DNA of 64,000 nucleotides, taken from positions 1,178,001 through 1,242,000 of the forward strand of contig NZ_CP059973.1 of NCBI RefSeq assembly GCF_009193295.2. The letters run 5' to 3'. Origin of the DNA: Bacteroides luhongzhouii (lineage in GTDB: Bacteria; Bacteroidota; Bacteroidia; Bacteroidales; Bacteroidaceae). Shown piece after piece: positions 11,472 through 44,578 of the stretch. Each line of letters starts with the position of its first letter. Position 1 is the first letter of the stretch. Below the pieces are notes generated by a model. The model made no database searches and was not told where the DNA came from. It saw only the letters and a program-made list of their open reading frames with translations. Made by a program: the position numbers and the translations under genes.

Positions 11472-12305
11472 ATGTATTCACTTCTCAACATCACCTGGAA
11501 CCCGAATCCCGAACTATTCAACCTGTTCGGCATTTCTATCCGTTATTACGGATTATTGTGGGCAGTAGGAATATTCTTTGCTTATGTTGTTGTTCACTAC
11601 CAGTACCGGGACAAAAAGATAGAAGAAAAGAAGTTTGACCCGCTTTTCTTTTACTGTTTCTTTGGTATTCTGATCGGTGCCCGCCTGGGACACTGTTTGT
11701 TCTATGATCCGGGATATTATCTGTCTCATTTCTGGGAAATGATCCTTCCCATCAAGTTTATGCCGGACGGAAACTGGAAGTTTACCGGATACGAAGGATT
11801 GGCCAGTCATGGCGGTACATTGGGATTGATAGTAGCACTTTGGCTGTATTGCCGTAAGACAAAGCTCCATTATATGGATGTGTTGGACATGATTGCCGTA
11901 GCTACTCCAATCACAGCCTGCTTCATCCGTCTTGCCAACCTGATGAACTCTGAAATCATCGGCAAGCCGACTGATGTACCCTGGGCATTCATTTTTGAAC
12001 GTGTGGATATGCAACCCCGCCATCCGGGACAGCTTTACGAAGCCATCGCCTATCTTATCCTGTTCTTCATCATGATTTATCTGTACAAGAATTATAGCAA
12101 AAAACTGCACCGTGGCTTCTTCTTCGGGCTTTGCCTGACTTATATCTTCACCTTCCGCTTTTTCATCGAATTCCTGAAAGAAAACCAGGAAGATTTTGAA
12201 AACAACATGATGCTCAATATGGGACAATGGTTAAGCGTTCCGTTTATAATAATAGGTGTCTATTTTATGTTCTTCTATGACAAGAAGAAAAAGAAAATAG
12301 CCTAG
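11472..12305 (+). CDS. lgt: Prolipoprotein diacylglyceryl transferase
   Basis: The 277-residue polytopic inner-membrane protein carries the Lgt signature region: [22 protein letters not shown] with the catalytic-site histidine, and HPGQLYEA. It transfers diacylglycerol from phosphatidylglycerol to the lipobox cysteine, the first step in maturing the many SusD-type lipoproteins encoded in this window. The C-terminus is a short basic tail (DKKKKKIA). A strong bidirectional terminator follows at 12316-12360, separating it from convergent mutS. Confidence 0.95.
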
Positions 12306-15365: not shown

Positions 15366-15495
15366 ATGTCCGGACGTTTCCTATCAGAACAGCTATCTTT
15401 AAAACGACTCGTTTTTGCACCGTTTTGAATAAATATTAGATGCATCGGAATTTTATTTACTCTAGTAACAAAGAAAAAACGCTTAGTAATAGAGT

Positions 15496-15592
15496 TCTAT
15501 CTGACACCCGGGTCTCAATGGTACTGACACCCGGGTGTTGGCATACCTGAGACCCGGGTGTCATAGATGCTGAGACCCGGGTCTCAGATAGA
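15496..15592. repeat. Four-unit palindrome array with CCCGGG cores, 23-base period
   Basis: Four 16-base units start at 15502, 15525, 15548 and 15571, an exact 23-base period. They follow TGA[C/G]ACCCGGGT[C/G]TCA; unit 2 ends in TTG in place of TCA. The four left/right half combinations (C/G, C/C, G/C, G/G) each occur once. Unit 4 is a perfect palindrome and unit 2 nearly so, while unit 1 is the exact reverse complement of unit 3. Units 1 and 4 also pair with six extra bases (TCTATC and GATAGA), one mismatch in 22. The array lies 121 bases downstream of the regulator stop. Function unknown. Confidence 0.9.
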
Positions 15593-15712
15593 TTGTTTAT
15601 ACAGTGGAGAAAAATCTAAACTATATTATTTAATTTCTTTCCGTGCGGATCAGTTTATTTCTATACCGTTATGAGTGAAATTATAAATAAAGAATTAGGC
15701 AAAGTCTGCCAA

Positions 15713-18337
15713 TTACACTTCACTTATAAACTGCTCAAAACTATATTTAAAATCCTCATTCAATATTAGCTTATACTCCTTGGTGAATTGATCAAATGCA
15801 GTATATGCCATTCCCATACGTTTCAAATCGACCAAAGCTCGGCACTTAACACGAACAGACTCTTCATCTAGCGAATCAAATCGCAAAATACAATTTGAGA
15901 TTTGTATTCTCAAGTTATCATTTCCAGCAAATTGCCTGCTATCTCTTAACCGACTCAGAAGATCAATCATTGAATCGGAATAATCCGCTTTAAAACTATC
16001 TACCCAATCAAATTGCATGTTAGGAAGTAATTGACCAAACGAAGCCAGGCTCAGCAATTTTTCCAGATCTTCCTTATGGACTACATCTAAAGACGCCATC
16101 TTTTGTATTAACTGATTAGCTATGGTATAATCATTATATACATGTCCCTTATTAAGAAAGTACCAATAACCATTTGCTGATGATATCTCCGTGTCTCCCA
16201 CCTCTTCCAACAAAAGACGTATCTTACGTATATTTACGCTACGGTTGTTAGAGAAACTCTCCTCTGATTTATCATACCACAACAATTCCTTTAACTTGAT
16301 ATTGGAAATCCCCTTATTATTCTGATTGGAATAAAGAATAATAACAGACAATAATTGCCGCATAATGGGCGTGAGTTTTCCGGTAATATCTTTTAAATCC
16401 CGATTAATTACCTGAAATCCGTTCAGCATATAAATTCCCGGTGTGGTATTCAGCACAGGAGCTTCAAACGAGGAATACAGGTGGTCATTTTCTTGAATTT
16501 CTTTCTCACTATTTATATCTAAAACAATCCCTTCTTCTTTTTCACAAATATCTTGTCGCGAAATAGATATAACTTCTTTCTTATCATGCTTTCTGCCATT
16601 CTTCAATCTCCACCCGATTCCCCCTAAACCTGCTACACAAATACATATAAACAGCAATTTCCACCAAGTCCCCCTGTTGTCCTGTACCGTCATATTTTGA
16701 ATAGGCAACACAGGAGATGCAATAGAATAAATATTAGCTTCATAATTATTCCCCTCTACCTGATGAACTGTTACAGCGTAATAACATTTTTCTGAAGCAA
16801 GATAAATTAAATCTGCATGAGAATTAACATCCAAGAAAGTATAGGGTATTGTATCACCTAAAACGGTTTCTTGTCCATTCTCCAAATTTAAATCTTTTAA
16901 AACCAAAGAAGATAGAAAACGGCCTGAAGAAAAAAATAACCCTTTCGCATGTTCGCCTTTTTCTTCTTCATCAACTATCAGTGTAGAAGCAGCCACTTCG
17001 TCACAAAGATTCTCCGGCATAGACCACTTTTTCTCCAAAGAATAGTCATTCAGGTTTAATTTATACAAATCCTTATAATGAACAACCCCATATTCTTGCT
17101 TGCCCAAGTCATTTCCCAATCCTCCATAAATATAAATCAGCGAATCGGTCTTCCCAATGGCACTCAAATAACGAGGAGCGATCACATCCGACAACTCTCC
17201 CTTTATCACTTCACCCGACAGAGATATTCTATTCAACTCACGGGTATACAAGTGAAACCCATATCCCAGAATTTGTACAATCGATGAATCTTTTTGATTG
17301 AAAAACCGATTATGTTGTGTATAGGAAGACTGCCTTTTCCGTTGGATAGGAATAGACCAACTTTTCGTTTGAAAATTGAAAAAAGACAGATTCTCCCCAT
17401 CAGGCTTCTCAAAGTCATAATAAACCAACTGGCTACCTTTATCTTTCAAAGGAACAAAAAGAAACTGGTTAGTGATCCGATTTACATCAATCAATGGCGA
17501 GAATATATATTCTTTGGTTGTACTCTGTATTAAATCATATTTGACAATGCGATCTTTTGCAACAAAATAACAGGCAGACTGAGGTTCACATGGAACGGGA
17601 AAAGTCTTGGATGAGAAAGATAACGTTTTCATATGTTTCCAATACATATGCCTATTAATAATCCATTCCGGATTGGATGTAAAAGCGGTCATCCGCTGAA
17701 ACTTATCCTGAAGCAAAGTGTCAGATACTGCTTGTTCCAACGACCATTCATATTTTACGCAGCCAGGTGCCAGACCGATCTGCACATCCTTCAAAATAAT
17801 AGGAGCCACGTCCGAGGTTGTGTAAGAAGCCAATTTATTTGCACCAAAACAAACCTTAACAGAATGATTGTCCGGGAAATTAGCTTTCTCTTTAGAAATA
17901 AGAAGACCATTATTTCTGACATATAATGTATCATTCCCATACTCCAGTTCTATCTTTATCCTGTTCCATCTATGAATATCAATTGCTGCGGAAGAGTGCA
18001 GCTTTCCTAAATATTGCTGGTCTTTGATAAAACACAGATAAGGCTCTTCGTTCACAGGATTAACCAATATCAGATTGAGACTACTGCTATTACCGATAAT
18101 CATGCGGCATACATAACCAAAATGTTCGCCTTTTTCCCTAATTTTCAAATCAAAAGAGACTGATAAATAATCTTTAAAATCCACTCCCTGATTACCGGAC
18201 GGTATGATGAATGAAGTACGTTCATCTTTTGAATATTCATATGCACGAAAAGAAAGGCCTCCGAGATTTTCACCCCCCCAAATGACTATAGCCTTCGAGA
18301 TAAATAAAATATAAAGTAACAGTCGGATATATTTCAT
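15713..18337 (-). CDS. Membrane-anchored regulator: periplasmic sensor plus cytoplasmic winged-helix/BTAD (SARP-like)
   Basis: In this 874-residue protein I see a signal peptide (about 1-21) and a LamG/concanavalin-like beta domain (about 25-190). A region that looks like a kelch or beta-propeller fold follows (about 240-545), then one membrane helix near 557-576 (LLFICICVAGLGGIGW). The cytoplasmic part has an OmpR-type winged-helix segment from about 634 to 730 (GIYMLNGFQV ... SVNIRKIRLLLEEVG ... GYWYFL) and a helical BTAD-like region from 735 to 874. SARP activators have the same winged-helix plus BTAD order but are normally soluble. It lies just beyond the mannan-type PUL with its own promoter, and I infer it activates that PUL on sensing extracytoplasmic glycan. 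Domain limits are estimates by eye. Confidence 0.75.
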   Translation of the reverse strand: MKYIRLLLYILFISKAIVIWGGENLGGLSFRAYEYSKDERTSFIIPSGNQGVDFKDYLSVSFDLKIREKGEHFGYVCRMIIGNSSSLNLILVNPVNEEPYLCFIKDQQYLGKLHSSAAIDIHRWNRIKIELEYGNDTLYVRNNGLLISKEKANFPDNHSVKVCFGANKLASYTTSDVAPIILKDVQIGLAPGCVKYEWSLEQAVSDTLLQDKFQRMTAFTSNPEWIINRHMYWKHMKTLSFSSKTFPVPCEPQSACYFVAKDRIVKYDLIQSTTKEYIFSPLIDVNRITNQFLFVPLKDKGSQLVYYDFEKPDGENLSFFNFQTKSWSIPIQRKRQSSYTQHNRFFNQKDSSIVQILGYGFHLYTRELNRISLSGEVIKGELSDVIAPRYLSAIGKTDSLIYIYGGLGNDLGKQEYGVVHYKDLYKLNLNDYSLEKKWSMPENLCDEVAASTLIVDEEEKGEHAKGLFFSSGRFLSSLVLKDLNLENGQETVLGDTIPYTFLDVNSHADLIYLASEKCYYAVTVHQVEGNNYEANIYSIASPVLPIQNMTVQDNRGTWWKLLFICICVAGLGGIGWRLKNGRKHDKKEVISISRQDICEKEEGIVLDINSEKEIQENDHLYSSFEAPVLNTTPGIYMLNGFQVINRDLKDITGKLTPIMRQLLSVIILYSNQNNKGISNIKLKELLWYDKSEESFSNNRSVNIRKIRLLLEEVGDTEISSANGYWYFLNKGHVYNDYTIANQLIQKMASLDVVHKEDLEKLLSLASFGQLLPNMQFDWVDSFKADYSDSMIDLLSRLRDSRQFAGNDNLRIQISNCILRFDSLDEESVRVKCRALVDLKRMGMAYTAFDQFTKEYKLILNEDFKYSFEQFISEV

Positions 18338-18356
18338 AGCAGAAGCTTATTTGAAG

Positions 18357-18364
18357 CAAAGATA
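18357..18364 (-). promoter_or_regulatory. -7 element of the regulator promoter
   Basis: The minus strand reads TATCTTTG 19 bases before the start codon. This implies the regulator is transcribed on its own and not only by read-through from the SusC operon. The 11-base repeats seen at the PUL promoters are not present here. Confidence 0.6.
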
Positions 18365-18458
18365 TAAAAAATATGTATCTTCAATCTTAGGATATTAAAA
18401 TAATATAGATACTCTGCACCAACAATGAAAGATATCCGGCTGTTATAACTCCACATCC

Positions 18459-20483
18459 CTAGCGAACCGGCATTCGGGATGAGCGCAGTTCTCCTCTCAA
18501 ATATTTAGCTGCTTCACCTGCCAGCCAAAGATAATGATCGGCTGTCTCTCCTTCATAAGTGATAAAAGAACTTTCACCCACCGGAGGTGTATTTGTACAT
18601 TTAAAGAAAGCCGTCCCCTCATCTATCTCATCAAACATTGCCAAATAAAGACTCTCCGCTCCTGCATCTACAGCACCTGTCACCTGTTTCCAAAAGAAAC
18701 GTCCCCCCAATCTCGGAATCATGTTTTGCGGAGCATCTTTTTTCATATTATGCCAGCTAAACCCCGGAAACAGCACTGGCATATAATCCTTGCCATTCGT
18801 TTTACACCACTTTATATCTTCCTCTATCAATTTTCGAAAAGGTTCATACGTATTACTATCAAAACGTCCTACCAACCATGGATGAACAATATCCGCCTGT
18901 TTTACCAGTTCAAGTAATCTCGTATCAGAGACAGCATCTATCGTTAATGTCCGCCAATGAGTAGGTACACCTACCAATATGGAACAACCTTCACTCTTCA
19001 GGAAATCAATGATTTTCTTTACCTGCTCATATCCATATTTACGGTGATCATTAAACCCTATTCCCCAAACAGCGACCAACGGTTTTCCGTGATGATAAAC
19101 ATAATGATTGTTGCTCCGGGAAACTAGTTTATACTTCTCACACAGCTCTTTCCAGTCACGTATCAATATATCTTCTTCACCGGCTTCCATACCGGAAAGG
19201 TCATACATCAGGCAAATTGCCCGATCATACTTTTCTGCCGAAAGAACAGCATTATTCAATATTTTATTATAATTATCCTTTCCTTTCCGATTCCGTATAG
19301 AAACGACAAAACGTTGCATAAATACCCCATCAATTCCATATTGCTGCATCCACTTAAAATGCAAATCCGTAGTGGAGGCATCATACGAACTGAAGACCTT
19401 TGCAGGTGTTTCATCAGGTAACTTAAAAGCTGTTTCATAAGTTTTCTCATATTCCGAAACATCCGGCCAAAGATCAATGGTACATTTGCCCGGTTTGAAC
19501 TCTTTCTCTTTTTCAAAATGCTTCCAACCCAGCCCGGCACCGTCTTCAGGAGTATTAAACCAACCCTGATACCCTGCCATCACTAAATTCTTTATTGATT
19601 TGAAACGGACACGACTCATCGACTCCGTCGTTTTTGTCGCCGGATCAGACATCGCCACCTCTTCAGGAAGTTGATTTAAGGCAATGAATTCACTAACAAA
19701 CCGGTCCGGATATACTTTCACTAAATTCAAACCTTGATAACCCGTCCCCAATACTTTGCCTACCGGGCCTATCGTTATCATTTCCAAATTACCTTCCTTT
19801 CCATAAGCATTATTATGCAGATGCCCCGAAAAAACGGCATTCACTCCATATTTCTGAAACAAACGCACATATTTTTCTCGCATAGGCAAAGAGAAATTTG
19901 AATAATTTACAGGTTCATCCATCCGTTTCAGAAAAACAGAGCAATGAGTAAAAACAAATCTGAATCGGGCATCCTTCGTTTTCTGCAATTCCTGTTCCAG
20001 CCACTTAAATTGAACTTCTTCCCGCTCCTTGTCCTCTTCTTTTATTATATTTGAATCAATACCTATAAATGCACACTCACCATACCTGAATGAAAAATGA
20101 GTTTCTCCGTAGTTTTTTTTATAATTATCTATAGACGCCCGGCTAACTTTACCTATATCATGATTTCCCGGAATCATATAAACCTTTACTGAAGGGTCTA
20201 TTTGAGCAATCATTGACTTATAAGCGGCAATCTGTTCCTTACTCTTCGAGTTATTCACAAAATCACCGGTTATCACCACAAACGGAGGTTTCAACCGATT
20301 AATAGCTGTCACAGCCTTATTCATGGCCTCTGTTTCCGCAGAAATACTCTTGTTATTATCCATGAAGCCGAATTGAGGATCACTCAGTTGCAAAAAGAAA
20401 AAAGGCGTGGAACCGGCAGCTACCCCTTGGGATATGAAAATAGCCAAGAGAAAACAAATGACCGTTATTATTTTCTTTCTCAT
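18459..20483 (-). CDS. Metallophosphoesterase fused to a GH71/GH99-like domain
   Basis: The 674-residue secreted protein has a signal peptide of about 22 residues. The calcineurin-like phosphoesterase half (about 28-285) carries SDPQFG (34-39), GDFVNN (73-78), GNHD (106-109), FTHCS (178-182) and GHLHN (220-224), a complete metal-binding set. The C-terminal half (about 300-674) opens with AGYQGWFNTPEDGAGLGW and contains FDEIDEGT near the end. Its Glu619-x-x-Glu622 matches the paired glutamates of GH99 endo-mannosidases. The fusion suggests removal of a phosphoester together with cleavage at the adjacent mannoside. It is the last gene of the leftward operon, 60 bases after the GH99-like lipoprotein. 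Activity is inferred. Confidence 0.82.
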   Translation of the reverse strand: MRKKIITVICFLLAIFISQGVAAGSTPFFFLQLSDPQFGFMDNNKSISAETEAMNKAVTAINRLKPPFVVITGDFVNNSKSKEQIAAYKSMIAQIDPSVKVYMIPGNHDIGKVSRASIDNYKKNYGETHFSFRYGECAFIGIDSNIIKEEDKEREEVQFKWLEQELQKTKDARFRFVFTHCSVFLKRMDEPVNYSNFSLPMREKYVRLFQKYGVNAVFSGHLHNNAYGKEGNLEMITIGPVGKVLGTGYQGLNLVKVYPDRFVSEFIALNQLPEEVAMSDPATKTTESMSRVRFKSIKNLVMAGYQGWFNTPEDGAGLGWKHFEKEKEFKPGKCTIDLWPDVSEYEKTYETAFKLPDETPAKVFSSYDASTTDLHFKWMQQYGIDGVFMQRFVVSIRNRKGKDNYNKILNNAVLSAEKYDRAICLMYDLSGMEAGEEDILIRDWKELCEKYKLVSRSNNHYVYHHGKPLVAVWGIGFNDHRKYGYEQVKKIIDFLKSEGCSILVGVPTHWRTLTIDAVSDTRLLELVKQADIVHPWLVGRFDSNTYEPFRKLIEEDIKWCKTNGKDYMPVLFPGFSWHNMKKDAPQNMIPRLGGRFFWKQVTGAVDAGAESLYLAMFDEIDEGTAFFKCTNTPPVGESSFITYEGETADHYLWLAGEAAKYLRGELRSSRMPVR

Positions 20484-20543
20484 AAATTATTTGATTGTTA
20501 CCACGGGATACAACTATCTGATGTATCCCGCTATTAATAACTC

Positions 20544-21647
20544 TTATTTCTTAAACTGATTTCTGGTTGTCTTCAGAAATTCGGATTTGTTCTCCTCTGT
20601 CGGTTCCAAATTTGTCCCTTTCTGGTAATTATTCCATGAATTGACTAACACAATATTCTTACTTCCGATATTCCGCTTAGCTACATTACAGAAATTAATA
20701 TAATCAGCTGTCTCTCCATCTTGTCCGAAAGTATATTTATAACTTGAAGTCGAATTGACACGGTCATTATAAGAAGGAAAGATACAAGGGACAAAGTCTG
20801 TATTCCATTTGGCAATTGTAGTCTTCCAATTGGCCCAATTCAAATCAATAAAACTGAAAAAGGCATAATAACGGTCATACATATTCGTCGACCAGTCATT
20901 CACCGTCACTCCATCAAAAGAAGCAATCTGATGTTCCTCATAATTCACCGGAGCTACCCAACCGGTAGTAAATTCTCCAATCGTATAAAGATCATACCCC
21001 AATTCTGATACAGCCTTCTTCAATGCCGGAATGACCAAAGAATAATCAATACTCTTCAATGCAGAAGAAGAAAGGTTAGACGGAGTTATTAAAATTACCG
21101 GTCTTCCGTTCATTTTGTAATAGGCCTCCTCATTAAATAAAGGTACTAAAGTATTCGTAAAATCATTGATCATCTTATTCAAATTCTCTTCCTCGTGAAG
21201 CGGTTTGTCATTAGATACTTTCAGATGTTTGGTGTTATAATTGATCACTAAGCGGACTTTTGCATTGGTTGCCGTACGTGCAGCTTTAAAGTTTGTAATC
21301 AATGTATTATCTGCCGAAGCTGCATCCCAGGTAAATATAAGAAAGTCCAAGGCAGCCTCATCCGCCCAAGCAAGCTGTTGCTGTAACACTCCATTAGTTG
21401 TAGACAAATATTCACCCAACAAAGGAGTACCGGCATATATTTTCTTACCGGACTTTAACCAGCTGGAAGAGGAAGTTATATTGGTATAATAAGCACCGAC
21501 TATCGCATCCACAGGTAAATCCGTCTGTGGTATATCATACACATATTTGCTCTTATCAGGAGCCAAATGTTCGTCTTTATCACAAGATACAGCTAACAAA
21601 GCGATGAATCCGAGCAATATAATAGTTATCTTTTTCATATCCTTCAT
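20544..21647 (-). CDS. GH99-like surface lipoprotein lacking the catalytic glutamates
   Basis: The 367-residue lipoprotein has Cys22 (AVSCDKDEH) as its likely anchor; a start three codons later (second Met) is equally plausible. The body reads like a GH99/WbsX-type barrel, with VGAYYTNITSSSSWL, IFTWDA, GRPVILITPSN and a C-terminal NSWNNYQKGTNLEP. In active GH99-type proteins the last motif resembles NEWHEGTQIEP; here the first Glu is Ser337 and the second is missing or displaced. The gene starts 3 bases after the SusD stop, the usual place for a SusE/F-type surface glycan-binding protein. I therefore infer a binding rather than hydrolytic role. Confidence 0.75.
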   Translation of the reverse strand: MKDMKKITIILLGFIALLAVSCDKDEHLAPDKSKYVYDIPQTDLPVDAIVGAYYTNITSSSSWLKSGKKIYAGTPLLGEYLSTTNGVLQQQLAWADEAALDFLIFTWDAASADNTLITNFKAARTATNAKVRLVINYNTKHLKVSNDKPLHEEENLNKMINDFTNTLVPLFNEEAYYKMNGRPVILITPSNLSSSALKSIDYSLVIPALKKAVSELGYDLYTIGEFTTGWVAPVNYEEHQIASFDGVTVNDWSTNMYDRYYAFFSFIDLNWANWKTTIAKWNTDFVPCIFPSYNDRVNSTSSYKYTFGQDGETADYINFCNVAKRNIGSKNIVLVNSWNNYQKGTNLEPTEENKSEFLKTTRNQFKK

Positions 21648-21650
21648 TTT

Positions 21651-23333
21651 TTAATTATTCGTCAAATAAGGGTTAGTCTTAGTCGGCAATGCAAACCATA
21701 ACTTAGTCGACATGGCATCTTGTCCACCATCGAGATTCGCAATACCTTTCGTCAATTCATATTCATTGTTTGTTTTCTCGCTATCGGGATATACCAATCG
21801 CTGAGGAATATAAGCGTAAGGATTATCCTTGGTGCCGGCATTCACAGCACCATATCCGGTCTCCGGTTGGAAATGCGGTGGGAATTCCAATACTTGGCTA
21901 CGGCGAATCAGTGTCCACGCATCCAGCGATTGATAAAACATGGCTATATATTGCTGCATGATAATCTGGCGATAAATCGGATCAGGTTCATCAGATGTAA
22001 TAGCGGAAGATACAATGCCGATAAAATCTTTATAATAATCTTCACCTTCTTCTGTAACCGTCAGATCTGTCAATGTATTCCATTTAATTCCCGGAGTCTG
22101 AAGATAATTATTTACTTTCACACCGTCTATGTCGTATTGAGCCATTGAAGCGTTCACACCCGCATTGTAATAAGCTTCGGCTGTCTGCGAACCACTTCCC
22201 AGACCTTTATGAACCAATTCACTTTTCAACAGGCACACTTCTGCATAATTCATAATTACTTCTGCATAACTTTGCTCCGTGAATTTATCCTGTAATTGAG
22301 AGTAATCATCCGCCGTTTTTCCACTGTGCGGATTGGGAGACAAGCTGACTCCCGAAGGCAAATTAGAAACTTTCGGTTGTCCCCAATAAGGTGCCCAATG
22401 GAAGTTATCAGGCATAGAAGCAGCATTGGCAGGAGTGAAAAACTTCTCCAACCGCGGATCAGCATAGGGAGCCATATACATCAGAATCGATTCACCGGCA
22501 GAGTGAAGCTTATCCAAATTACTTTCACGGTTGATGACCAGATAATCATAAAAATAATTTCTTGTATCTGCGTTATCTCCCCATTGCAAAAGACAATTAT
22601 CTTCGTTACTTGTCATCAAGTTCTGTTCATTTTCCATAAGTTCATCAATCACTTCAGTCGCTTTCGAGCGGTCGGCATTACAAATACGTACCGCCAAACG
22701 CAAACGTAGTGAATTGGCAAACTTCTTCCATTTCAACAAGTCACTGGATTTCTGGCCTGAAGGAAAAATAGGGTCTTTTTTATAAACATCTCCATCCATC
22801 TTCAACCCGTCGGCACATACTTTCAGATCATTCAGCATAGCATAATAAATATCCGATTCTTTATCGTAAGGCACTCTTTCTGCAGCATTAAAAGCCTGAC
22901 TTTTGGGAATACCTCCCCAAATAGAAACGGCTTGTGAGAAAAGATAGTTTTCCCATATTTTAGCAATAAGTACACGATTGTGATATTGCTCGTCATTTCC
23001 CATTTGCGTTTGTATAAAGTGAACAGGAAAAATCGCATAATTATATACATTCTTCCAATATGAATCATTGGTTGAACCTTGATTTCCATACCGTTGCACC
23101 TGTCCACCGGTAGCTCCACCATAATAATGGCTATAGTTGGCCAACAACACTTTTTTCATGCTTCCGCAAAAAGCATTCAGCGTATAATAAGAACTCGTAT
23201 TGAACAAATATTCTGGATTAATCTCATTAAGTTCATTGGGATTGGCATTGGCAGATTCAAAGTCATTCGTACACGAAACGAAAGAAATGGCCATTGCCGC
23301 AAAACCGGCTAATAATATTTTAATCTGTTTCAT
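21651..23333 (-). CDS. SusD-like nutrient-binding lipoprotein (SusD_2 type) of the mannan-type PUL
   Basis: The 560-residue lipoprotein has Cys21 in SFVSCTNDFESANANPNELN, with the ANPNE text common in the second SusD-like family. Helical repeats follow, and the C-terminal part contains QQYIAMFYQSLDAWTLIRRSQVLEFP, typical of the family. It forms the surface lid of the SusC barrel encoded 12 bases upstream. The length fits the family. The ligand is inferred only from the adjacent GH99-like and GH92 genes. Confidence 0.92.
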   Translation of the reverse strand: MKQIKILLAGFAAMAISFVSCTNDFESANANPNELNEINPEYLFNTSSYYTLNAFCGSMKKVLLANYSHYYGGATGGQVQRYGNQGSTNDSYWKNVYNYAIFPVHFIQTQMGNDEQYHNRVLIAKIWENYLFSQAVSIWGGIPKSQAFNAAERVPYDKESDIYYAMLNDLKVCADGLKMDGDVYKKDPIFPSGQKSSDLLKWKKFANSLRLRLAVRICNADRSKATEVIDELMENEQNLMTSNEDNCLLQWGDNADTRNYFYDYLVINRESNLDKLHSAGESILMYMAPYADPRLEKFFTPANAASMPDNFHWAPYWGQPKVSNLPSGVSLSPNPHSGKTADDYSQLQDKFTEQSYAEVIMNYAEVCLLKSELVHKGLGSGSQTAEAYYNAGVNASMAQYDIDGVKVNNYLQTPGIKWNTLTDLTVTEEGEDYYKDFIGIVSSAITSDEPDPIYRQIIMQQYIAMFYQSLDAWTLIRRSQVLEFPPHFQPETGYGAVNAGTKDNPYAYIPQRLVYPDSEKTNNEYELTKGIANLDGGQDAMSTKLWFALPTKTNPYLTNN

Positions 23334-23345
23334 AATATTCTATCT

Positions 23346-26300
23346 TTAGAAGGTTAGTTTAATATCAAATCCGACAGAAGTCACGGGCGGCATTCCTCCA
23401 TATTCTATACCTTGAGCATTTCCTGATGAAGAAGAAGCCTCCGGATCTATGCCTTTAGGAGTGTTTTGATGAAGAATAGCCAAATTACGTCCTACCACAG
23501 CCAGTCGTAGACCACTAATCGGCAATTTCTTTATGACAGACTTCGGAAGACTGTAGGCAACAGAAAGTTCACGGAATTTAATATAGGAAGCATCAAATAC
23601 AGACCTTTCATCAAAACTGGCATAGCGGTTATTAGGTTTGACAAACAAGAGACAGGGCGTTCCGTCTTCAAAATAAGCATCCGGATATTGATAACCGGAA
23701 GTTGCCTTCGCACTACTCTCACCATAAATCACATTACTCAAATAGTATCCTTCACGTCCTTCGGCAGATTCGGCAACAACACCGGCTGTTGTCGCTCTAT
23801 TCCATGTTCCCGAATAAAGAGTTCCTCCAATACGTGCATCAAACAGGAAACTAACTGTAAAATTCTGAATTCTGAAATTGCTTCCAAAACTTCCCGTCCA
23901 TTTCGGCTCGGCACAACCCAAATACTGCGTATTATCCGTTACCAATATTTTACCTGAAGAATCGACTAATTTACGTCCCTGGTCATCACGTTTCCAAGCA
24001 CGTCCCCGAATGACTCCATAAGGCATACCTTCTTCCAGCATAATGCTGACATTACTTGATTTCAATAATTGCACATTGGGATTTCCGTCCACCACCTTTA
24101 TCACTTTCGACCGATTACGCGCCCAGTTGATATTCGCATTCCATTCAAACAGTTTGGTCTTGACCGGAGTGGCAGATAACACAACTTCCCATCCTTGATT
24201 ACGCACATGACCTGTGTTCAAAAACTTATAACTGTAACCACTAGGTACAGGTAACGCAACTTTCGTTATCAGATCATAGGCATCCGAACGATAATAAGTT
24301 ACATCTACACCCAAACGATTATGGAAAAAACGGAGATCAGCTCCAAGTTCCAAAGAGCGGTTACGTTCCGGCAAAAGTTGGTCATTATTCAAAGTTGTGC
24401 TGATGGTTTGCAGAGGTGAACCATTATAAATGCTACCCAACTTATAGGTTTGATTAATCCGATATGGATCTGTGTCAGAACCGGCATAAGCAAAAGAAGC
24501 ACGAATCTTACCGAACGACAAAATAGATGATTTGATTTTAAACGCATCGGTAAAAATAAACGTAGCACCAAAAGAAGGATAAAAATAAGAGCAATTATCC
24601 AGTGGTAAAGTAGACGACCAGTCATTGCGGGCCGTTACATCCAAATAGATATAACTATTGTAACCTAATGACAACGAACCGTAGGCAGAACGGATTATCT
24701 TCTTAGATTGCAGCTGAGAAACACTAGGATACTCATTCGAGTTAGAAATATTTTTGAAATCAGGAACCAATATGCTATTCACGCTTTCCGTTCTTTTCTC
24801 CGAGTTACGTTCATATCGGCTAATACCGGCAATGGCATTGACTGATATCTTATGAAATGTTTTATTATACATCAATAATGCTTCAAAATTAGTAGAAGTA
24901 CTGTTATTAATCCAGTTCTTCATGCCACCGTCCACATCACTACGTGCACCCAAGTTAAAGAACTCCATTCCCTTCCACCAATAAGCATCCAGTCCGGCCT
25001 TACCTACCGCCTTCAAGCCCGGAAGTAATTTTATTTCCAGATTCATCGATCCGCTCACCCTGTCACGCGTGTCAGAGTTTGTATTTTCATAAATATTCCA
25101 ATACGGATTATAACCACGTTCACCAATCGGAATCATTTCATTTCCATTTTCATCCTTATAATGTTTCAATACATCAATAGAAAGCGAACGAGGAAGAGTA
25201 ACAAACGCATATATAGGATTCTTATCCGAACCGTTCATATATTGACGGTTATCCACCTTCTCATGCGAGTAAGTCATTTTAGAATCTAAAGTCATCCATT
25301 TGGTAATCGTATTCATCAACCGGAGATTGAATATATCTTTAAAGCTTTCATTGATACCGTGTACCACACTATTCCCCTTACTTCTTGTATAAGATACGCG
25401 ATAATTATTCTTTTTCGAACCACCTTCCACAGCCAACGTATGTGTGTACCGATGGGCAGTTTCATAGAAATCCTTCACATTGTCCGGATGTGAAGAATGA
25501 GTGGTAAGCACACCATCATGCCCATAGATAACCTGATCCCACAAAGGTGCTCCCCAGCTACGCAATTTAGCACCTGCAGAAGAATTATAACCACTGAAAT
25601 TCGGTAAATCTGTCTGTAGCCTGTTACCATTAGGTTGAAGCGTCAGTTTGTGGTCAAGCAAATAAGAGTTTTCTCCCGTTCCCCAACCATTCTGATAATC
25701 TAAAAACTGATTCACTTTTTCAAATTGAAAATTTCCGCTATAAGATACTTTTGTTTTTTCGAATGTGCTCGAACGTTTAGTTGTCACCAATACAACCCCC
25801 TGTGCTGCACGCGAACCATAAAGTGCAGCTGCATTCGGTCCCTTCAGGATTTCAATACTTTCAATATCATCCGGATTGATATCCGCTACCGGATTACCAA
25901 GGTCGGTAGAACCTGTACCACCATCAACAGTCACACTTGTATCACCCGGTTCGTTTTCAATAATCATGCCATCAATCACGAATACAGGCTGTGAGTTTTC
26001 TGTCAGTGAGCTTGTTCCGCGAATAACAATACGCGCACTACCATTGCTCGTTCCCGGAGGAGTAATGGTAACCCCCGCCACCTTACCAGAAAGAGAAGAT
26101 ATCAGATTGCCACTACTATTCTCTGCCAAGGCTTCCGCATTTACACTCTGCCGTGAATAATTAAGACTCTTAGCTTCACGCGTCACTCCGAGAGCCGTAA
26201 CGACCACTTCATCAAGAGCCTTCGCCGTGCTGGCCAAAGATACATTTATATGAGTCAAACCGATAATTTTGACCGTTTTTGTCTCCATTCCGACATACGA

Positions 26301-26537
26301 AAATTTCAATTCTTGACATCCATTAGGCACATTAAGTGTAAACGTACCATTTATATCGGTAATTGTACCTACCGATTTAGCGTTCGTCTTACCATCCGGA
26401 TCAACAGCCACCACCGTAGCTCCTATGATAGGCATTCCATCCGCAGCATCTGTCACTTTACCCGTTATACGCTTTCCTTGCGCATAACCCGATACACTTA
26501 TTACTATAAAGAATAAGAATAGGAAATAGTTTTTCAT
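23346..26537 (-). CDS. SusC-like TonB-dependent transporter of the mannan-type PUL
   Basis: The 1063-residue protein has a signal peptide ending near GYAQ, a CNA-B/carboxypeptidase-D-like domain (RITGKVTDAADGMPIIGATV), then the plug with ALDEVVVTALGV and the signature SARIVIRGTSSLTENSQPVF. A 22-strand-type barrel ends in TSVGFDIKLTF. It is the first gene of the leftward operon, preceded by a promoter with 11-base-phased repeats shared with the divergent GH92 operon. It should import mannan-derived oligosaccharides across the outer membrane. There is no N-terminal STN extension, in keeping with control by the membrane SARP-like protein and not by an ECF/anti-sigma pair. Confidence 0.95.
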   Translation of the reverse strand: MKNYFLFLFFIVISVSGYAQGKRITGKVTDAADGMPIIGATVVAVDPDGKTNAKSVGTITDINGTFTLNVPNGCQELKFSYVGMETKTVKIIGLTHINVSLASTAKALDEVVVTALGVTREAKSLNYSRQSVNAEALAENSSGNLISSLSGKVAGVTITPPGTSNGSARIVIRGTSSLTENSQPVFVIDGMIIENEPGDTSVTVDGGTGSTDLGNPVADINPDDIESIEILKGPNAAALYGSRAAQGVVLVTTKRSSTFEKTKVSYSGNFQFEKVNQFLDYQNGWGTGENSYLLDHKLTLQPNGNRLQTDLPNFSGYNSSAGAKLRSWGAPLWDQVIYGHDGVLTTHSSHPDNVKDFYETAHRYTHTLAVEGGSKKNNYRVSYTRSKGNSVVHGINESFKDIFNLRLMNTITKWMTLDSKMTYSHEKVDNRQYMNGSDKNPIYAFVTLPRSLSIDVLKHYKDENGNEMIPIGERGYNPYWNIYENTNSDTRDRVSGSMNLEIKLLPGLKAVGKAGLDAYWWKGMEFFNLGARSDVDGGMKNWINNSTSTNFEALLMYNKTFHKISVNAIAGISRYERNSEKRTESVNSILVPDFKNISNSNEYPSVSQLQSKKIIRSAYGSLSLGYNSYIYLDVTARNDWSSTLPLDNCSYFYPSFGATFIFTDAFKIKSSILSFGKIRASFAYAGSDTDPYRINQTYKLGSIYNGSPLQTISTTLNNDQLLPERNRSLELGADLRFFHNRLGVDVTYYRSDAYDLITKVALPVPSGYSYKFLNTGHVRNQGWEVVLSATPVKTKLFEWNANINWARNRSKVIKVVDGNPNVQLLKSSNVSIMLEEGMPYGVIRGRAWKRDDQGRKLVDSSGKILVTDNTQYLGCAEPKWTGSFGSNFRIQNFTVSFLFDARIGGTLYSGTWNRATTAGVVAESAEGREGYYLSNVIYGESSAKATSGYQYPDAYFEDGTPCLLFVKPNNRYASFDERSVFDASYIKFRELSVAYSLPKSVIKKLPISGLRLAVVGRNLAILHQNTPKGIDPEASSSSGNAQGIEYGGMPPVTSVGFDIKLTF

Positions 26538-26593
26538 AATACTTAGTTATTAAATTAAAAAATACAGTATTGATTAATGCATTAAAGATGAAC

Positions 26594-26640
26594 CAAAGAT
26601 ATTTTATAGTGATTAATATTAGATTAATATTCTCTTAATG
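26594..26640 (-). promoter_or_regulatory. SusC promoter with three 11-base-phased activator repeats
   Basis: On the minus strand the -7 box TATCTTTG (26594-26601) is preceded by TATTAATC (26611-26618), TATTAATC (26622-26629) and CATTAAGA (26633-26640). Repeat starts are exactly 11 bases apart. The gap between the proximal repeat and the -7 box is 9 bases, and there is no TTTG at the -33 position. This arrangement resembles SARP-activated promoters, where heptad repeats occupy the -35 region. Confidence 0.75.
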
Positions 26641-26676
26641 GCGGGAGTTTACAAAAAAATATTTGTAGCAGATAGA

Positions 26677-26723
26677 TTTTAAGGTTACATTAAGCTTTCA
26701 TTAATCAAACTACCATATATTTA
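26677..26723 (+). promoter_or_regulatory. GH92 operon promoter with matching 11-base-phased repeats
   Basis: The plus strand has TTTTAAGG (26677), CATTAAGC (26688) and CATTAATC (26699), again at an exact 11-base period. A 9-base gap follows, then TATATTTA (26716-26723), a TAnnTTTG-like -7 box with its last base changed. The layout mirrors the SusC promoter on the other strand, which supports this weak -7 box and suggests one activator drives both operons. Confidence 0.7.
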
Positions 26724-26767
26724 CAGCAAATCTAATTAAAACCATCGAAAAATAAAAGAATCTGTTT

Positions 26768-29026
26768 ATGTACAAGAGAAAATTCATTCCGTTAGTACTG
26801 TTAATGATTTTAATCGTCAATGGATGCAGCAACAAACAAGAGGTAGTGTTAACTCCGGTTGACTATGTAAATCCTTATATGGGGAATATCAGTCATTTGT
26901 TAGTTCCTACTTACCCAACTGTCCATCTTCCCAATAGCATGCTCCGCATCTATCCGGAAAGAGCAGATTACACTTCTGATAAAATAAAAGGCTTACCGGT
27001 CATTGTCACCTCGCATCGGGGAAAGTCAGCATTCAGCCTGTCTTTTTATCAAGGAGCAGAAAGCGGATTACAACCGGTATATTACTATTGTTATGATAAT
27101 GAAGTGATAAAACCCTATTCCTATTCTTCCTATTTTGAAGAAGAAGAAGTTTCCACTAAATTCGCTCCCGCCCACCAGGCAGGAATCTATGAACTAAGTT
27201 TCCGGAAAAACGATGCTCCTTATTTAATACTTAGTACTACCAACGGTGAGCTTAAAACTACGGAGAATACCATTTCCGGCTATCAGAACATAGATCATCA
27301 AACCAAAGTATATGTTTATATGGAGACTTCTGCACTGCCGGAAAAAACGATGACTGTCAGCAAAGAAGAAATAAACCACGACCATGCTGCCATTAAAGGT
27401 AAGAATGTGGGTATCGCTCTCCTATATTCAACAGATATAAAAACAATCAAAGTTCGCTACGGCATTTCCTTCATTGATGAAAAGCAAGCAAAGGCCAACC
27501 TACAGCGGGAAATAAAAGATTATGATGTGGAAAACCAAATGAACATTGCCAAAAACATCTGGAACCAAACATTAAATAAAATCAAAGTGGAAGGAATAGA
27601 CGAAAATGCAAAAGCAATATTCTATACTTCCCTCTACCGGACTTACGAACGGATGATTTGCCTTTCGGAAGACAATCGCTATTACAGTGCTTTCGACAAT
27701 AGTATCCACAAAGATTCTGTTCCTTTTTATACCGACGATTGGATTTGGGACACGTATAGAGCCGTCCACCCCTTACGTGTTATCATCGAACCACAAATGG
27801 AAGCTGACATGATTCAGTCTTTTATCAGAATGGCACAGCAAATGGAACATAACTGGATGCCTACATTTCCTGAAGTTACGGGAGACAGTCGTAGAATGAA
27901 TTCCAATCACGGTGTAGCCACTGTTATCGATTCATATATAAAAGGAATCCGTAACTTTGATTTATCAGCCGCTTACGAAGCTTGTAAACTTGGTATCACT
28001 GAAAAAACATTAGCTCCGTGGTCAGGCATAAAGGGAGGTGAAATTACAAAATTCTATTGGGAAAACGGATATTTACCGGCATTGGCACCGGGAGAACAAG
28101 AAACAGCCGGCGAAGTACACCCATTTGAAAAACGCCAACCGGTAGCCGTCACTCTAGGTACATCTTACGATGAATGGTGTCTGGCACAAATAGCCAAACA
28201 ACTTGGATATGAGAAAGACTATAACTACTTTCTACAAGGGAGTAAAAACTATCGGAATATTTTCAACCCTGAAACAAAATTCTTCCATCCTAAGAATGCA
28301 AAGGGTGAATTTATAGAACCCTTTGATTATGCCACTGCCGGCGGACTGGGTGCCCGTGAAGCCTACGGAGAGAATAACGGCTGGATATACCGGTGGGATG
28401 TACCTCATAATATTGCTGATTTAATTGAACTGATGGGAGGGAAAGAAGCATTCAGAAATAATCTTGAAACGATGTATAACACCCCATTGGGCGAAGCCAA
28501 ATATGTATTTTATGCGCAATTACCGGACCATACGGGTAATGTAGGTCAATTTTCAATGGCTAATGAACCCAGTATGCACATTCCTTATCTGTACAACTAT
28601 ATAGGAGAGCCTTGGAGAACCCAAAAAAGAGTAAGGACATTGCTCGATGAATGGTTTAGAAATGACCTGATGGGACTCCCGGGCGACGAAGATGGCGGAG
28701 GAATGTCAGCATTTGTAGTCTTCTCCATGCTAGGTTTCTATCCTATTACTCCTGGTTTGCCTATTTATGTCATCGGAACTCCTATGTTTGAAAGAGCAGT
28801 TATTGAAACAGGAGCGGGCAAATCATTCGAAGTCATTGCGCACAACTATTCGCCGACAAATAAATATATCCAATCAGCCAAATTAAATGGCAAAGATTGG
28901 AACCAGTCCTGGTTCGAACATAAAGAACTGATGAATGGCGGCAAACTGGAATTTACAATGGGAAACACTCCCAATAAGAATTGGGCGGCAGACAGTGTGC
29001 CCCCTTCTTTTGAAATGAATAAATAA
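26768..29026 (+). CDS. GH92 alpha-mannosidase, lipoprotein
   Basis: The 752-residue lipoprotein has Cys20 (IVNGCSNKQ) as anchor. GH92 features are DYVNPYMGN at the N-terminus, ENNGWIYRWDVPHN (Glu535 as likely general acid), ANEPSMHIPYLYNY and GLPGDEDGGGMSAF with Asp640 and Asp642 as the probable base pair. GH92 enzymes are calcium-dependent exo-alpha-mannosidases, and some act on mannose-phosphate-mannose. The segment GQFSMANEPSMH departs from the GQYAHGNEPSHH text I recall in many members, so linkage or leaving-group preference may differ. It leads the rightward operon with two phosphoesterase genes. Confidence 0.93.
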   Translation: MYKRKFIPLVLLMILIVNGCSNKQEVVLTPVDYVNPYMGNISHLLVPTYPTVHLPNSMLRIYPERADYTSDKIKGLPVIVTSHRGKSAFSLSFYQGAESGLQPVYYYCYDNEVIKPYSYSSYFEEEEVSTKFAPAHQAGIYELSFRKNDAPYLILSTTNGELKTTENTISGYQNIDHQTKVYVYMETSALPEKTMTVSKEEINHDHAAIKGKNVGIALLYSTDIKTIKVRYGISFIDEKQAKANLQREIKDYDVENQMNIAKNIWNQTLNKIKVEGIDENAKAIFYTSLYRTYERMICLSEDNRYYSAFDNSIHKDSVPFYTDDWIWDTYRAVHPLRVIIEPQMEADMIQSFIRMAQQMEHNWMPTFPEVTGDSRRMNSNHGVATVIDSYIKGIRNFDLSAAYEACKLGITEKTLAPWSGIKGGEITKFYWENGYLPALAPGEQETAGEVHPFEKRQPVAVTLGTSYDEWCLAQIAKQLGYEKDYNYFLQGSKNYRNIFNPETKFFHPKNAKGEFIEPFDYATAGGLGAREAYGENNGWIYRWDVPHNIADLIELMGGKEAFRNNLETMYNTPLGEAKYVFYAQLPDHTGNVGQFSMANEPSMHIPYLYNYIGEPWRTQKRVRTLLDEWFRNDLMGLPGDEDGGGMSAFVVFSMLGFYPITPGLPIYVIGTPMFERAVIETGAGKSFEVIAHNYSPTNKYIQSAKLNGKDWNQSWFEHKELMNGGKLEFTMGNTPNKNWAADSVPPSFEMNK

Positions 29027-29032
29027 CAGAAT

Positions 29033-30136
29033 ATGAATAAAATATTATTTGTCCTTTTATCGCTTTTGACTTCTCTGCAATCATACTCCCAAGAGCAAAA
29101 TGAAAAAGAAGTTTCATTTCTCTTGTTGGGAGATATACACTATGATTTATTGGAAGATCACGATATGGAATGGTTATCCACCAAACCGGATGATCTGCGC
29201 CAAGTTACCAAAGAATATTCAGTATTCACGAAAAATACATGGCCGGAATTCTCCCGGATAATCAACGGGAAAGTTCAAAAACACCAACCGTCAATAAAAG
29301 CCGTTCTGCAAATGGGGGACTTGTCAGAAGGATTGGCCGGTTCTCCACAAAAAGCAATACAGATGGCTAACAGTGCCTTTAAAGCTGTCAACAAAATGAA
29401 TCTGAAAGTACCTTTTATTATGACTAAAGGTAATCATGATATCACAGGGCCAGGGGCTAAAGAAGCTTTTGAAAAAGTATACTTACCCAATATGGCAAGA
29501 TTGGCAGGACATCCATCCTTACAGTCAGCCAATTACACTACTACTCTTGATGATGCATTATTTGTGTGTTATGATCCATGGGATCGGAATCCGGAAGGGC
29601 TACAACAATTAGAAAAGTCACTAGCCGATTCGAAGGCAACTTACAAGTTTGTCATGTTACACGAGCCTGTGATTCCGGTAAACGAAAGATGCTGGCATGT
29701 ATTCCGACAAGACAATGCCAAGAGGGAACAATTACTGCAGATCATTGCCAGTCAACAAGCAATCGTGCTCTGTGCACATCTACATCTATACTCCGTTGTC
29801 TGTCGAGACACTCCTTGGGGACCTATCGTTCAGATTCTCGTCAACAGTGTCATCAAAGATAAAAATATGCCGGTTCCGAAAAATGTAGTTACAGACTATG
29901 GTCCTGAATTTGTAACGGCACACCCACAATGGCAACCTTCTACTCTACAACAGCGTATGGAATGGATTGATAAAGAAACTCCCCATATCCGTTTTTTCAA
30001 ACAAATGGATTTACCGGGCTACGGCATCCTTTCTATTGACAAAGAAAACAACCAGATGCAATTAGAATATTATGCCGCATTTGGAGAAAAGCCATACGAT
30101 ACAGTCAACATATCCGAATTACTTACTTCTAATTAA
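29033..30136 (+). CDS. Secreted calcineurin-like metallophosphoesterase
   Basis: The 367-residue protein has a signal peptide ending near SYSQ. The metal-site motifs are all present: LLGDIHYD, QMGDLSEG, TKGNHDITG, LHEPVIP and CAHLHLYS. Family members hydrolyse phosphomonoesters or diesters with a two-metal centre. The gene starts 6 bases after GH92 and is followed 13 bases later by an alkaline phosphatase, so it acts with mannan breakdown. A plausible role is opening a mannose phosphodiester before the alkaline phosphatase removes the remaining monoester. Substrate assignment is inference. Confidence 0.88.
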   Translation: MNKILFVLLSLLTSLQSYSQEQNEKEVSFLLLGDIHYDLLEDHDMEWLSTKPDDLRQVTKEYSVFTKNTWPEFSRIINGKVQKHQPSIKAVLQMGDLSEGLAGSPQKAIQMANSAFKAVNKMNLKVPFIMTKGNHDITGPGAKEAFEKVYLPNMARLAGHPSLQSANYTTTLDDALFVCYDPWDRNPEGLQQLEKSLADSKATYKFVMLHEPVIPVNERCWHVFRQDNAKREQLLQIIASQQAIVLCAHLHLYSVVCRDTPWGPIVQILVNSVIKDKNMPVPKNVVTDYGPEFVTAHPQWQPSTLQQRMEWIDKETPHIRFFKQMDLPGYGILSIDKENNQMQLEYYAAFGEKPYDTVNISELLTSN

Positions 30137-30149
30137 AAACATATTAGCC

Positions 30150-31286
30150 ATGAATGTAAAATTTAAAATTCACTTATTTATTCTTTCCTTATTCTTTTGC
30201 TATAATCTATCAGCACAAGAAATCGTCAAAGGAGATTTTAAGAACGAAAATCCACAAAGTTCGTATGTTCCTTCATTTGAAATGGATGCTACCGACAAAC
30301 CTGTCAAGAATGTTATTTTAATGATAGGCGACGGCATGGGACTGGCACATATCTGTTCAGGAATGTATGCTAATCAAGGACAGCTTACTATCACTAATTT
30401 AAAAACATGCGGTTTCGTCAGAACACAATCCGCCAACAAGTTTACAACAGATTCAGCAGCTTCCGGTACAGCTTACTCAACCGGAAAGAAAACTAAAAAC
30501 GGAGCACTCGGAATGGATGAAAATAACCAGGTTATTCCAAACCTACCCGAAAAGTTATCCGGTTATGGCTACATTTCAGGAATCGTTACTACTGACAATC
30601 TTGACGGAGCCACCCCTGCAGCTTTCTTTGCTCACCAACCGGAACGTGGAATGTCTAAAGAAATTTGGGCGGATCTTTCTAACAGTAAGCTGACATTCTT
30701 TTCTGCCGGTAGTTATGAACTATTTGAAAAACAAGCACCAAACGTTCAAAAGGAAATCAAAAAAGAGTTCACCATCATAGAGGAACCGAATGACAAAGCT
30801 ATCAAGAAATCTAAAAAACTGGGATATTTACCCACAAAGAGCAAAACGGCTTCTGTAAACGAAAATCGAGGAGATTTCCTTCCGTCTACCACCCAAATGG
30901 CTATTGACTATCTTTCGAACAGGAGTACTAACGGTTTCTTCTTAATGGTAGAAGGTGCCCGAATAGATAAAAGTGCGCACAGTAATGATTATTCGGCAGT
31001 TGTCCGTGAAGTATTGGACTTTGATAAAGCAGTAGAAGCCGCCATCAGATTTGCAGAAAAAGATGGAAATACATTAGTGATTATTTCAGCTGATCATGAA
31101 ACCGGAGCATTAGCTTTACGTGACGGAAACATAAAAGAAGGCAAAATGAAAGCAATGTTTGTATCTAAAGGACATACACCAATCATGGTTCCACTGTTTG
31201 CATACGGTCCACAATCCAAGCTTTTTGGCGGTGTTCAGGAAAACAGCGACGTAAGCAATAAAATTTTCCAATTACTCGCTAAATAA
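30150..31286 (+). CDS. Secreted alkaline phosphatase (PhoA type)
   Basis: I chose the ATG at 30150 (378 residues) because it gives a clean signal peptide ending at LSAQ; an upstream in-frame ATG at 30072 would lie inside the previous gene. Motifs are MIGDGMG (metal Asp), TTDSAASGTAYSTG with Ser102 as nucleophile, EGARIDKSAHSND and SADHETGALAL. It hydrolyses phosphomonoesters in the periplasm or outside the cell. As the last gene of the GH92 operon it likely removes phosphate from mannose phosphate. A terminator follows at 31315-31366. Confidence 0.93.
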   Translation: MNVKFKIHLFILSLFFCYNLSAQEIVKGDFKNENPQSSYVPSFEMDATDKPVKNVILMIGDGMGLAHICSGMYANQGQLTITNLKTCGFVRTQSANKFTTDSAASGTAYSTGKKTKNGALGMDENNQVIPNLPEKLSGYGYISGIVTTDNLDGATPAAFFAHQPERGMSKEIWADLSNSKLTFFSAGSYELFEKQAPNVQKEIKKEFTIIEEPNDKAIKKSKKLGYLPTKSKTASVNENRGDFLPSTTQMAIDYLSNRSTNGFFLMVEGARIDKSAHSNDYSAVVREVLDFDKAVEAAIRFAEKDGNTLVIISADHETGALALRDGNIKEGKMKAMFVSKGHTPIMVPLFAYGPQSKLFGGVQENSDVSNKIFQLLAK

Positions 31287-44077: not shown

Positions 44078-44578
44078 AATAATATTCTTATTTCTTTCCT
44101 TTTAAAAAAAATCCTTTGTTAGTAATGATAGCCTGTTAATAATGTTAGCAAATAAATACGATTTTTCTTGTCGGATAAGTTATTAGTCCATACTTCTGCT
44201 TTATGAGTCGGTTATGAACTGATGTAAAGGACAAGATATCCTATCCTACTTGCTTCATTATCAATGAAAGCATCGTTAAATGTCATCAAATGGAAGTTTG
44301 CTATTAACTCCCTGTTGATAAAGTGCAAAGTTAAAAACTTTATGGATATAAACAGGCAGATAAGTGCTGAAAAATATGTTTATGTCTGTGTAGAAAGTTT
44401 TGGGTTAGTTTTTTGGAATGTTCATAATGAAGTCCTCTTATACCTTCTTTTGAATAATGCAAGAATTATTTTTCAAAATCTTTGCCGATAGTTTTGACAG
44501 GTTTTAAACCGTTATCAACACCTTGTTAACTGAAAAGAATTACCTTTGTGGACAAGAACATAATAAAAGAAAAGACGT
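44078..44578. other. 501-base non-coding stretch with DnaA-box-like sequences
   Basis: This gap between divergent nadA and the trmH-type gene is A/T-rich. Two sequences differ by one base from the DnaA box TTATCCACA: TGTTGATAA at 44313-44321 (minus-strand TTATCAACA) and TTATCAACA at 44512-44520. A 75-codon open frame at 44264-44491 has no recognisable features and is probably not a gene. Confidence 0.4.
44541..44548 (+). promoter_or_regulatory. -7 element of the trmH-type gene
   Basis: TACCTTTG, a TAnnTTTG match, 30 bases before the start codon. Confidence 0.6.

Follow-up and report, generated by a model that had tools for sequence, protein, structure and literature searches.

The 64,000-nucleotide stretch of the Bacteroides luhongzhouii genome analysed here (NZ_CP059973.1, positions 1,178,001 to 1,242,000; hereafter the window, in which features are numbered from its first base) carries a polysaccharide utilization locus (PUL) whose two operons, one led by a SusC-like transporter gene and the other by a glycoside hydrolase family 92 (GH92) gene, diverge from a common intergenic gap. 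This gap very probably holds a divergent, doubly activated promoter pair that is read by a membrane-anchored regulator of the SARP (Streptomyces antibiotic regulatory protein) type, whose gene closes the SusC operon. A preliminary description had proposed membrane-bound SARP-like control, a reading that the comparisons below support in each part that sequence can test.

Paired promoter arrays in the SusC/GH92 gap

The gap is 230 bases long and contains 78% A+T. Bacteroides promoters are described in terms of a -7 box, with the consensus TAnnTTTG, and a -33 element. Each of the two -7 boxes of the gap is preceded by three heptads resembling YATTAAK:

26594..26601, minus strand: -7 box TATCTTTG (perfect match to TAnnTTTG), SusC operon promoter
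26612..26618, minus strand: proximal heptad TATTAAT, SusC promoter array, -7 box 10 bases on
26623..26629, minus strand: middle heptad TATTAAT, SusC promoter array
26634..26640, minus strand: distal heptad CATTAAG, SusC promoter array
26677..26683, plus strand: distal heptad TTTTAAG, GH92 promoter array
26688..26694, plus strand: middle heptad CATTAAG, GH92 promoter array
26699..26705, plus strand: proximal heptad CATTAAT, GH92 promoter array, -7 box 10 bases on
26716..26723, plus strand: -7 box TATATTTA (5/6 match to TAnnTTTG), GH92 operon promoter

The heptad period is exactly 11 in both arrays, and on both sides 10 bases separate the YATTAAK heptad from the -7 box, or 11 when counted from the end of the last TTAA. 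Paired promoters with three repeats each and an 11-base period were thus rightly recognized in the preliminary description. Its coordinates hold for the right array and were one base off for the left; the 9-base gap to the box becomes 10, and its account of the promoters is otherwise correct save that the right-hand box departs from the consensus by one letter.

When the 64 kb were scanned at periods 8-15 with a heptad motif picked post hoc, triples scoring at least 19/21 occurred solely at this pair and solely at period 11. Chance was gauged with 2000 dinucleotide shuffles of the gap, searched for three exact TTAA at a period of 8-16 and a gap of 5-25 from a box matching at least 5/6: one strand or the other yielded such a promoter in 19 shuffles, and matching geometry on both strands arose in none. 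Throughout the 5.76 Mb genome, the pattern TTAA-7-TTAA-7-TTAA-11/12-TAnnTTT has three exact matches and its reversed version none. Two of the three are this promoter pair, and the remaining one precedes a SusC gene adjoining a paralog of the regulator (2255172-2257706). A scan of the same genome with up to two mismatches gave five matches (the two promoters, one look-alike with one mismatch and two with two mismatches), and one for the reversed control. A one-mismatch look-alike at 44504-44548 of the window precedes an open reading frame (ORF) of 175 residues, and a similar promoter stands before a 175-residue ORF at a homologous locus (L055); the look-alike is perhaps a distant target, or else belongs to a different kind of conserved promoter.

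The proposed regulator

The protein proposed to read these arrays comprises, from its N-terminus, a hydrophobic helix that is probably a signal peptide, a beta-rich domain with a weak laminin-G-like match, a Kelch propeller, one probable transmembrane helix (residues 555-579), a low-confidence linker (581-629) and, at the C-terminus of the predicted structure, a winged helix-turn-helix (wHTH, 634-728) and a BTAD (736-872). Sequence and profile searches of Pfam, NCBIfam and PDB detected no known domain in the C-terminus, and the identity of the wHTH-BTAD part therefore comes from structure comparison. With the model of residues 625-874 (predicted local distance difference test score, 94), a structure search ranked AfsR and EmbR top, over both domains, in line with the winged-helix/BTAD protein earlier proposed; aligned by structure, the protein is 14% identical to AfsR in sequence. 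A fold search with the full-length protein returned, among the matches listed, mostly propellers. No histidine kinase, receiver or AraC-type domain was detected by Pfam at E values up to 10. From its predicted topology the regulator is probably membrane-anchored, with the ectodomain outside and the output part in the cytoplasm.

The regulator is predicted to bind the arrays, activate transcription, sense a glycan and dock to sigma region 4. The ectodomain, propeller and beta-rich domain together, would sense a periplasmic product derived from the substrate of the PUL, and the signal would cross via the single transmembrane helix and the flexible linker to the wHTH-BTAD part. Protomers would then lie side by side on the 11-base-spaced TTAA heptads, along one face of the helix. 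With the proximal heptad at a fixed distance from the -7 box, the array would replace the -33 element, while the BTAD, by analogy with AfsR, would engage both sigma region 4 and core RNA polymerase. The SusC and GH92 operons would thereby be switched on jointly.

Phased arrays at homologous loci

Homologs of the regulator were found in 57 of 149 genomes sampled from the genus, in 19 of 399 sampled from the family (11 of them genus members counted again) and in 30 of 393 sampled from the order, which represent 20 of 206 Bacteroidales genera, the genome of the window included. The one close ortholog, in B. xylanisolvens XB1A, is too similar to inform (94% identity for the protein, 97% for the promoter region), and more distant homologs were therefore compared. 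The distal TTAA centres of the two arrays are 44 bases (4 x 11) apart in the window; a meaningful equal phase of the two arrays was dropped, since in XB1A the distance between the arrays is longer by one base. The single plasmid match to the locus covers GH92 coding sequence alone.

The test set consisted of 60 regulator loci (L035-L094) other than the window locus and its XB1A copy, mostly the places of the best-scoring homologs; three are paralogs from the same genome as the window, one (L059) is a remnant, one (L084) spans 4 kb and a few others less than 20 kb. Controls were 20 random and 20 SusC-centred loci without a regulator homolog by blastp, and ORFs in the loci were called with a simple ATG-only script. 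Motif-free triples with a score of 17 were found at period 11 in 26 of 222 distinct intergenic regions of the test loci and at period 22 in 21, with at most 8 at the other periods between 8 and 16. Exact TTAA triples at period 11 occurred in 23 of the 222 test regions and in none of 156 control regions; with one mismatch allowed these numbers became 43 and 3, and 30 shuffles of the test set gave a mean of 4.1 and a maximum of 8. Five control loci (L135, L137, L145, L181 and L197) display 11-base direct repeats with other cores, for instance GATAACATT in L135; other winged-helix regulators may have codes of their own.

The arrays are also in register with the promoter. Where a TTAA triple was followed within 45 bases by a perfect box, the distance was 11, 12, 22, 23, 33 or 34 in all 28 instances, among which some promoters are counted twice. 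Around 125 perfect boxes, TTAA was present 21, 16, 18, 12 and 9 times at offsets 11, 23, 34, 45 and 56, respectively, and at most 5 times elsewhere, while no offset exceeded 4 around the control boxes (65 and 32). The register 11n or 11n+1 was set after these triple-box distances had been seen, and a rotation control applied one rule to all registers. At least three in-register TTAA were carried by 77 of 310 promoters at 39 of the 60 loci (controls, 0/187) and, after deduplication, by 46 of 279 promoters at 31 loci (controls, 0/210). Registers 4-10 and 13-21 gave 1-4 promoters (controls 0, once 1), other periods 0-2, and the overlapping register 12 gave 29. The figure of 46 allows one base of play; without it, 21 promoters have spacings of 12 + 11n. 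Merging look-alikes left 44 distinct arrays at 29 loci. With a stricter consensus, three TTAAK at 14/15 or better were found in 30 of the 60 loci (best control 12), three WTAACC at 16/18 or better in 3 (best control 14) and neither motif in 27. Beyond the genus, 13 of 37 loci have an in-register array no more than about 1.5 kb from the homolog, and one of these loci (L252) has five consecutive heptads; 30 SusC controls contained no in-register array.

Relatives in Bacteroidales would apply one layout at their own PULs in two versions. In the first, three heptads are consecutive; the window arrays and a few more have them at 11/22/33, and 11/23/34 is commoner. In the second, three upstream heptads are separated by a two-turn skip from one proximal heptad (11, then 34/45/56). 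The exact skip pattern has 55 matches in the 149 genus genomes and its reverse none: 32 lie within 10 kb of a regulator gene and 38 within 20 kb, and 19 of the 20 genomes with a match hold a regulator (hypergeometric 2e-8, uncorrected for kinship). The three-heptad layout has 20 matches in 15 genus genomes, against one for the reversed pattern, and 13 of these have a regulator no more than 10 kb away. This neighbourhood suggests that the array promoters are the targets of the regulator. By BLAST to the window genes, 9 of the 44 arrays precede SusC-like genes and 9 precede GH92 genes. Twenty of the 49 array-bearing genes left unlabelled, many of them near copies, were scanned by Pfam, which identified GH2 (3), GH3, GH31 (2), GH43 (3), GH95 or GH95-like (2), fucosidase, MGH1/GH63-like and sialate esterase domains. 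Six others of the 20 have fn3, DUF4988, laminin-G or TIG/NHL domains, some by weak matches, and are probably surface proteins. A near-identical skip array recurs in six genomes at 26-867 kb from the nearest regulator and is possibly one conserved distant regulon member:

G091:C8:235586
G001:C52:180159
G086:C1:6288279
G012:C1:104835
G093:C33:454445
G107:C1:4859046

The recognition helices of the regulators fall into two classes, NNR/NNL-type (32 array loci) and KN-type (17 array loci). The mean share of sites with C after TAA is 4% for the former and 45% for the latter, whose sites read TTAACC (Mann-Whitney 4e-8). Since the regulator tree has a single deep split between the helix classes, the link between helix and motif does not count as replicated; it is one evolutionary event and is supportive at most.

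Several findings weigh against the proposed reading. The GH92-side array taken alone has a motif-free repeat score of 14.7, which is not outstanding, and the strength of the case therefore lies in the pair of arrays together with the relatives. Motif-free triples at period 11 rise mildly in the controls too (5/94 and 5/62 regions), with other motifs, and the strict 11/22/33 spacing of the window, without play, is found at only 4 of 279 promoters. Conservation of the repeats in orthologous loci, a check proposed in the preliminary description, was sought at homologous loci and did not refute its reading, though 21 of the 60, including a paralog from the same genome (L037), have no promoter with three phased TTAA; some of these show a TTAACC-like variant. 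Outside the genus, wrong registers yield 1-7 matches against 14 in register. Of the 55 skip matches, 12 have their nearest regulator more than 40 kb away or share their contig with none, 7 of the 20 three-heptad matches are on contigs without a regulator, and 3 of 49 loci go against the link between helix class and motif.

The regulator might instead read the arrays to repress, whether at all times or only while unliganded (and then activate when liganded), blocking the -33 zone until glycan arrives. The heptads do occupy the position of the -33 element, where a bound protein might obstruct polymerase. This is nevertheless unlikely: the array keeps one fixed register upstream of the -7 box, and AfsR, the closest structural relative, is an activator (PMC10936776). 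TTTG in the -33 zone was present at none of the 77 phased promoters and at 16 of 142 control boxes, as dependence on an activator predicts, but this agreement is weak because most control boxes lack TTTG as well.

A second alternative is that a PhoB/OmpR-type or AraC-type protein encoded elsewhere reads the arrays, the link to the regulator reflecting shared residence in PULs. Direct repeats of 11 bp suit any OmpR-type winged helix, and some array promoters are far from any regulator. However, of the SusC-centred loci without a regulator, 0 of 20 has a promoter with three phased TTAA, and 0 of 62 of their regions has an exact TTAA triple at period 11. The near-constant presence of a regulator in skip-layout genomes and the motif base that follows its helix class (one event) also argue for the regulator as reader; no further regulator was found by Pfam among the PUL genes and ten other window genes, the ORFs of the window having been scanned in part, and the site spacings of hybrid two-component systems (HTCS) and SusR, given below, differ. 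Another reader is thus quite improbable. A purely structural role of these A+T-rich repeats, as a phased bend or UP-like element that no protein specifically reads, fits the base composition of the gap and a phasing close to the helical repeat but is barely credible, as control regions of equal mean A+T (68-69% vs 68%) lack exact TTAA triples at period 11 and bending needs neither a TTAA core nor a fixed box register nor class-specific flanks.

It is likely that Bacteroidales possess a further broad class of PUL regulators, membrane-anchored, Kelch-ectodomain, SARP-type one-component activators in which phased TTAA at 11n/11n+1 from the -7 box names the targets and the base following TTAA is determined by the recognition helix (T/G with NNR, CC with KN[SL][RK]), so that regulons, distant members included, could be read from genomes.

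Two loci bear on loss of the system. In L221 (genome G021), at about 11569-11776, the equivalent of window positions 15377-26526 (11.15 kb) is missing between flanks 94-95% identical to the window, from just past the regulator to the SusC start, which removes the SusC, SusD, WbsX, metallophosphatase and regulator genes; the sole regulator match in this genome is a weak and partial one, at 25% across some 105 residues. The GH92 array keeps all three of its heptads, and the orphan SusC array is short by exactly 11 bases, one unit. The array unit thus behaves as one repeat, an observation silent on function. In L059 (genome G044), at about 10188, a remnant of the regulator C-terminus, 94-96% identical, adjoins an alkaline phosphatase gene and is probably a second loss of the PUL.

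The locus and known regulatory systems

The genes on either side of the promoter pair are as follows:

15713..18337, minus strand: proposed regulator, last gene of the leftward operon
18357..18364, minus strand: perfect -7 box TATCTTTG (read by eye) in the 121-base gap 5' of the regulator gene
18459..20483, minus strand: metallophosphatase with a C-terminal GH99-like stretch (24 bits, below the 33-bit cut-off)
20544..21647, minus strand: WbsX-family protein (domain scan)
21651..23333, minus strand: SusD-like protein (domain scan)
23346..26537, minus strand: SusC-like TonB-dependent transporter, leading the leftward operon (plug and carboxypeptidase-like domains)
26768..29026, plus strand: GH92 enzyme, leading the rightward operon (domain scan)
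29033..30136, plus strand: metallophosphatase, rightward operon (domain scan)
30072..31286, plus strand: alkaline phosphatase, rightward operon (domain scan)

The combination at 18459-31286 of GH92, two metallophosphatases, an alkaline phosphatase and a WbsX-family protein suggests that the substrate is a phosphorylated alpha-mannoside. No phased TTAA array was seen by eye in the gap 5' of the regulator gene, and the box there might give the regulator a promoter of its own that does not depend on an array.

Accounts of PUL regulation usually centre on HTCS, SusR and extracytoplasmic function (ECF)/anti-sigma systems; HTCS are encoded within the PUL under their control, and SusR-like regulators are membrane-bound one-component PUL regulators. 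The regulator resembles an HTCS in being a single membrane protein with a sensor and a DNA-binding part (PMC11253607), but no kinase or receiver was detected in it, and it has a winged helix in place of an AraC-type domain. Since HTCS half-sites average 21 bp apart and the two sites of the SusR motif are separated by 67 or 77 bp (PMC3878776), the heptads of 11-bp period belong to neither type. Unlike PhoB/OmpR response regulators, the protein shows no N-terminal receiver by Pfam and in its model bears the beta-rich domain and propeller there; compared with ToxR, CadC and TcpP, its order is reversed, the ectodomain preceding the winged helix, and it has a BTAD. A period of 11 bp is typical of OmpR/PhoB-type winged helices generally, not of SARPs alone; it is the BTAD that singles out the SARP.

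As in AfsR and mycobacterial EmbR, an OmpR-type winged helix is followed directly by a BTAD. SARP sites are direct heptad repeats 11 or 22 bp apart over the -35 zone, with 8 bp between the 3' repeat and the -10 element (PMC10936776) and spacers of 4-15 nucleotides (PMC10972967). The same spacing is found here over the -33 zone, provided that one base of play is allowed for most relatives, whose arrays commonly contain 22-bp skips. The SARP geometry invoked in the preliminary description thus stands for the period; as to the gap, the distance is fixed at 10 bases when measured to the -7 box, which may differ in register from a -10 hexamer, as against 8 to the -10 element in SARPs. The core is an A+T-rich TTAA, and the targets are PULs instead of antibiotic clusters. 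Because its wHTH-BTAD part is C-terminal, behind a probable transmembrane helix and a Kelch ectodomain, whereas that of SARPs is N-terminal in a soluble protein, the regulator is SARP-like in output and not a classical SARP.

A survey reports transmembrane transcription regulators to be abundant in Bacteroidota, and its main text makes no mention of BTAD, AfsR or Kelch (PMC10269533); no description of SARP-type PUL control was found in the literature searched, which covers few subscription papers. What appears new is the combination of a SARP-like output and promoter grammar with a new architecture, phylum and role. If correct, this would let the regulons of many uncharacterised PULs be predicted from an exact promoter grammar, would raise the question of how a membrane-tethered protein occupies three to five sites per promoter, and would extend the SARP mechanism of activation from Actinobacteria to gut glycan degraders.
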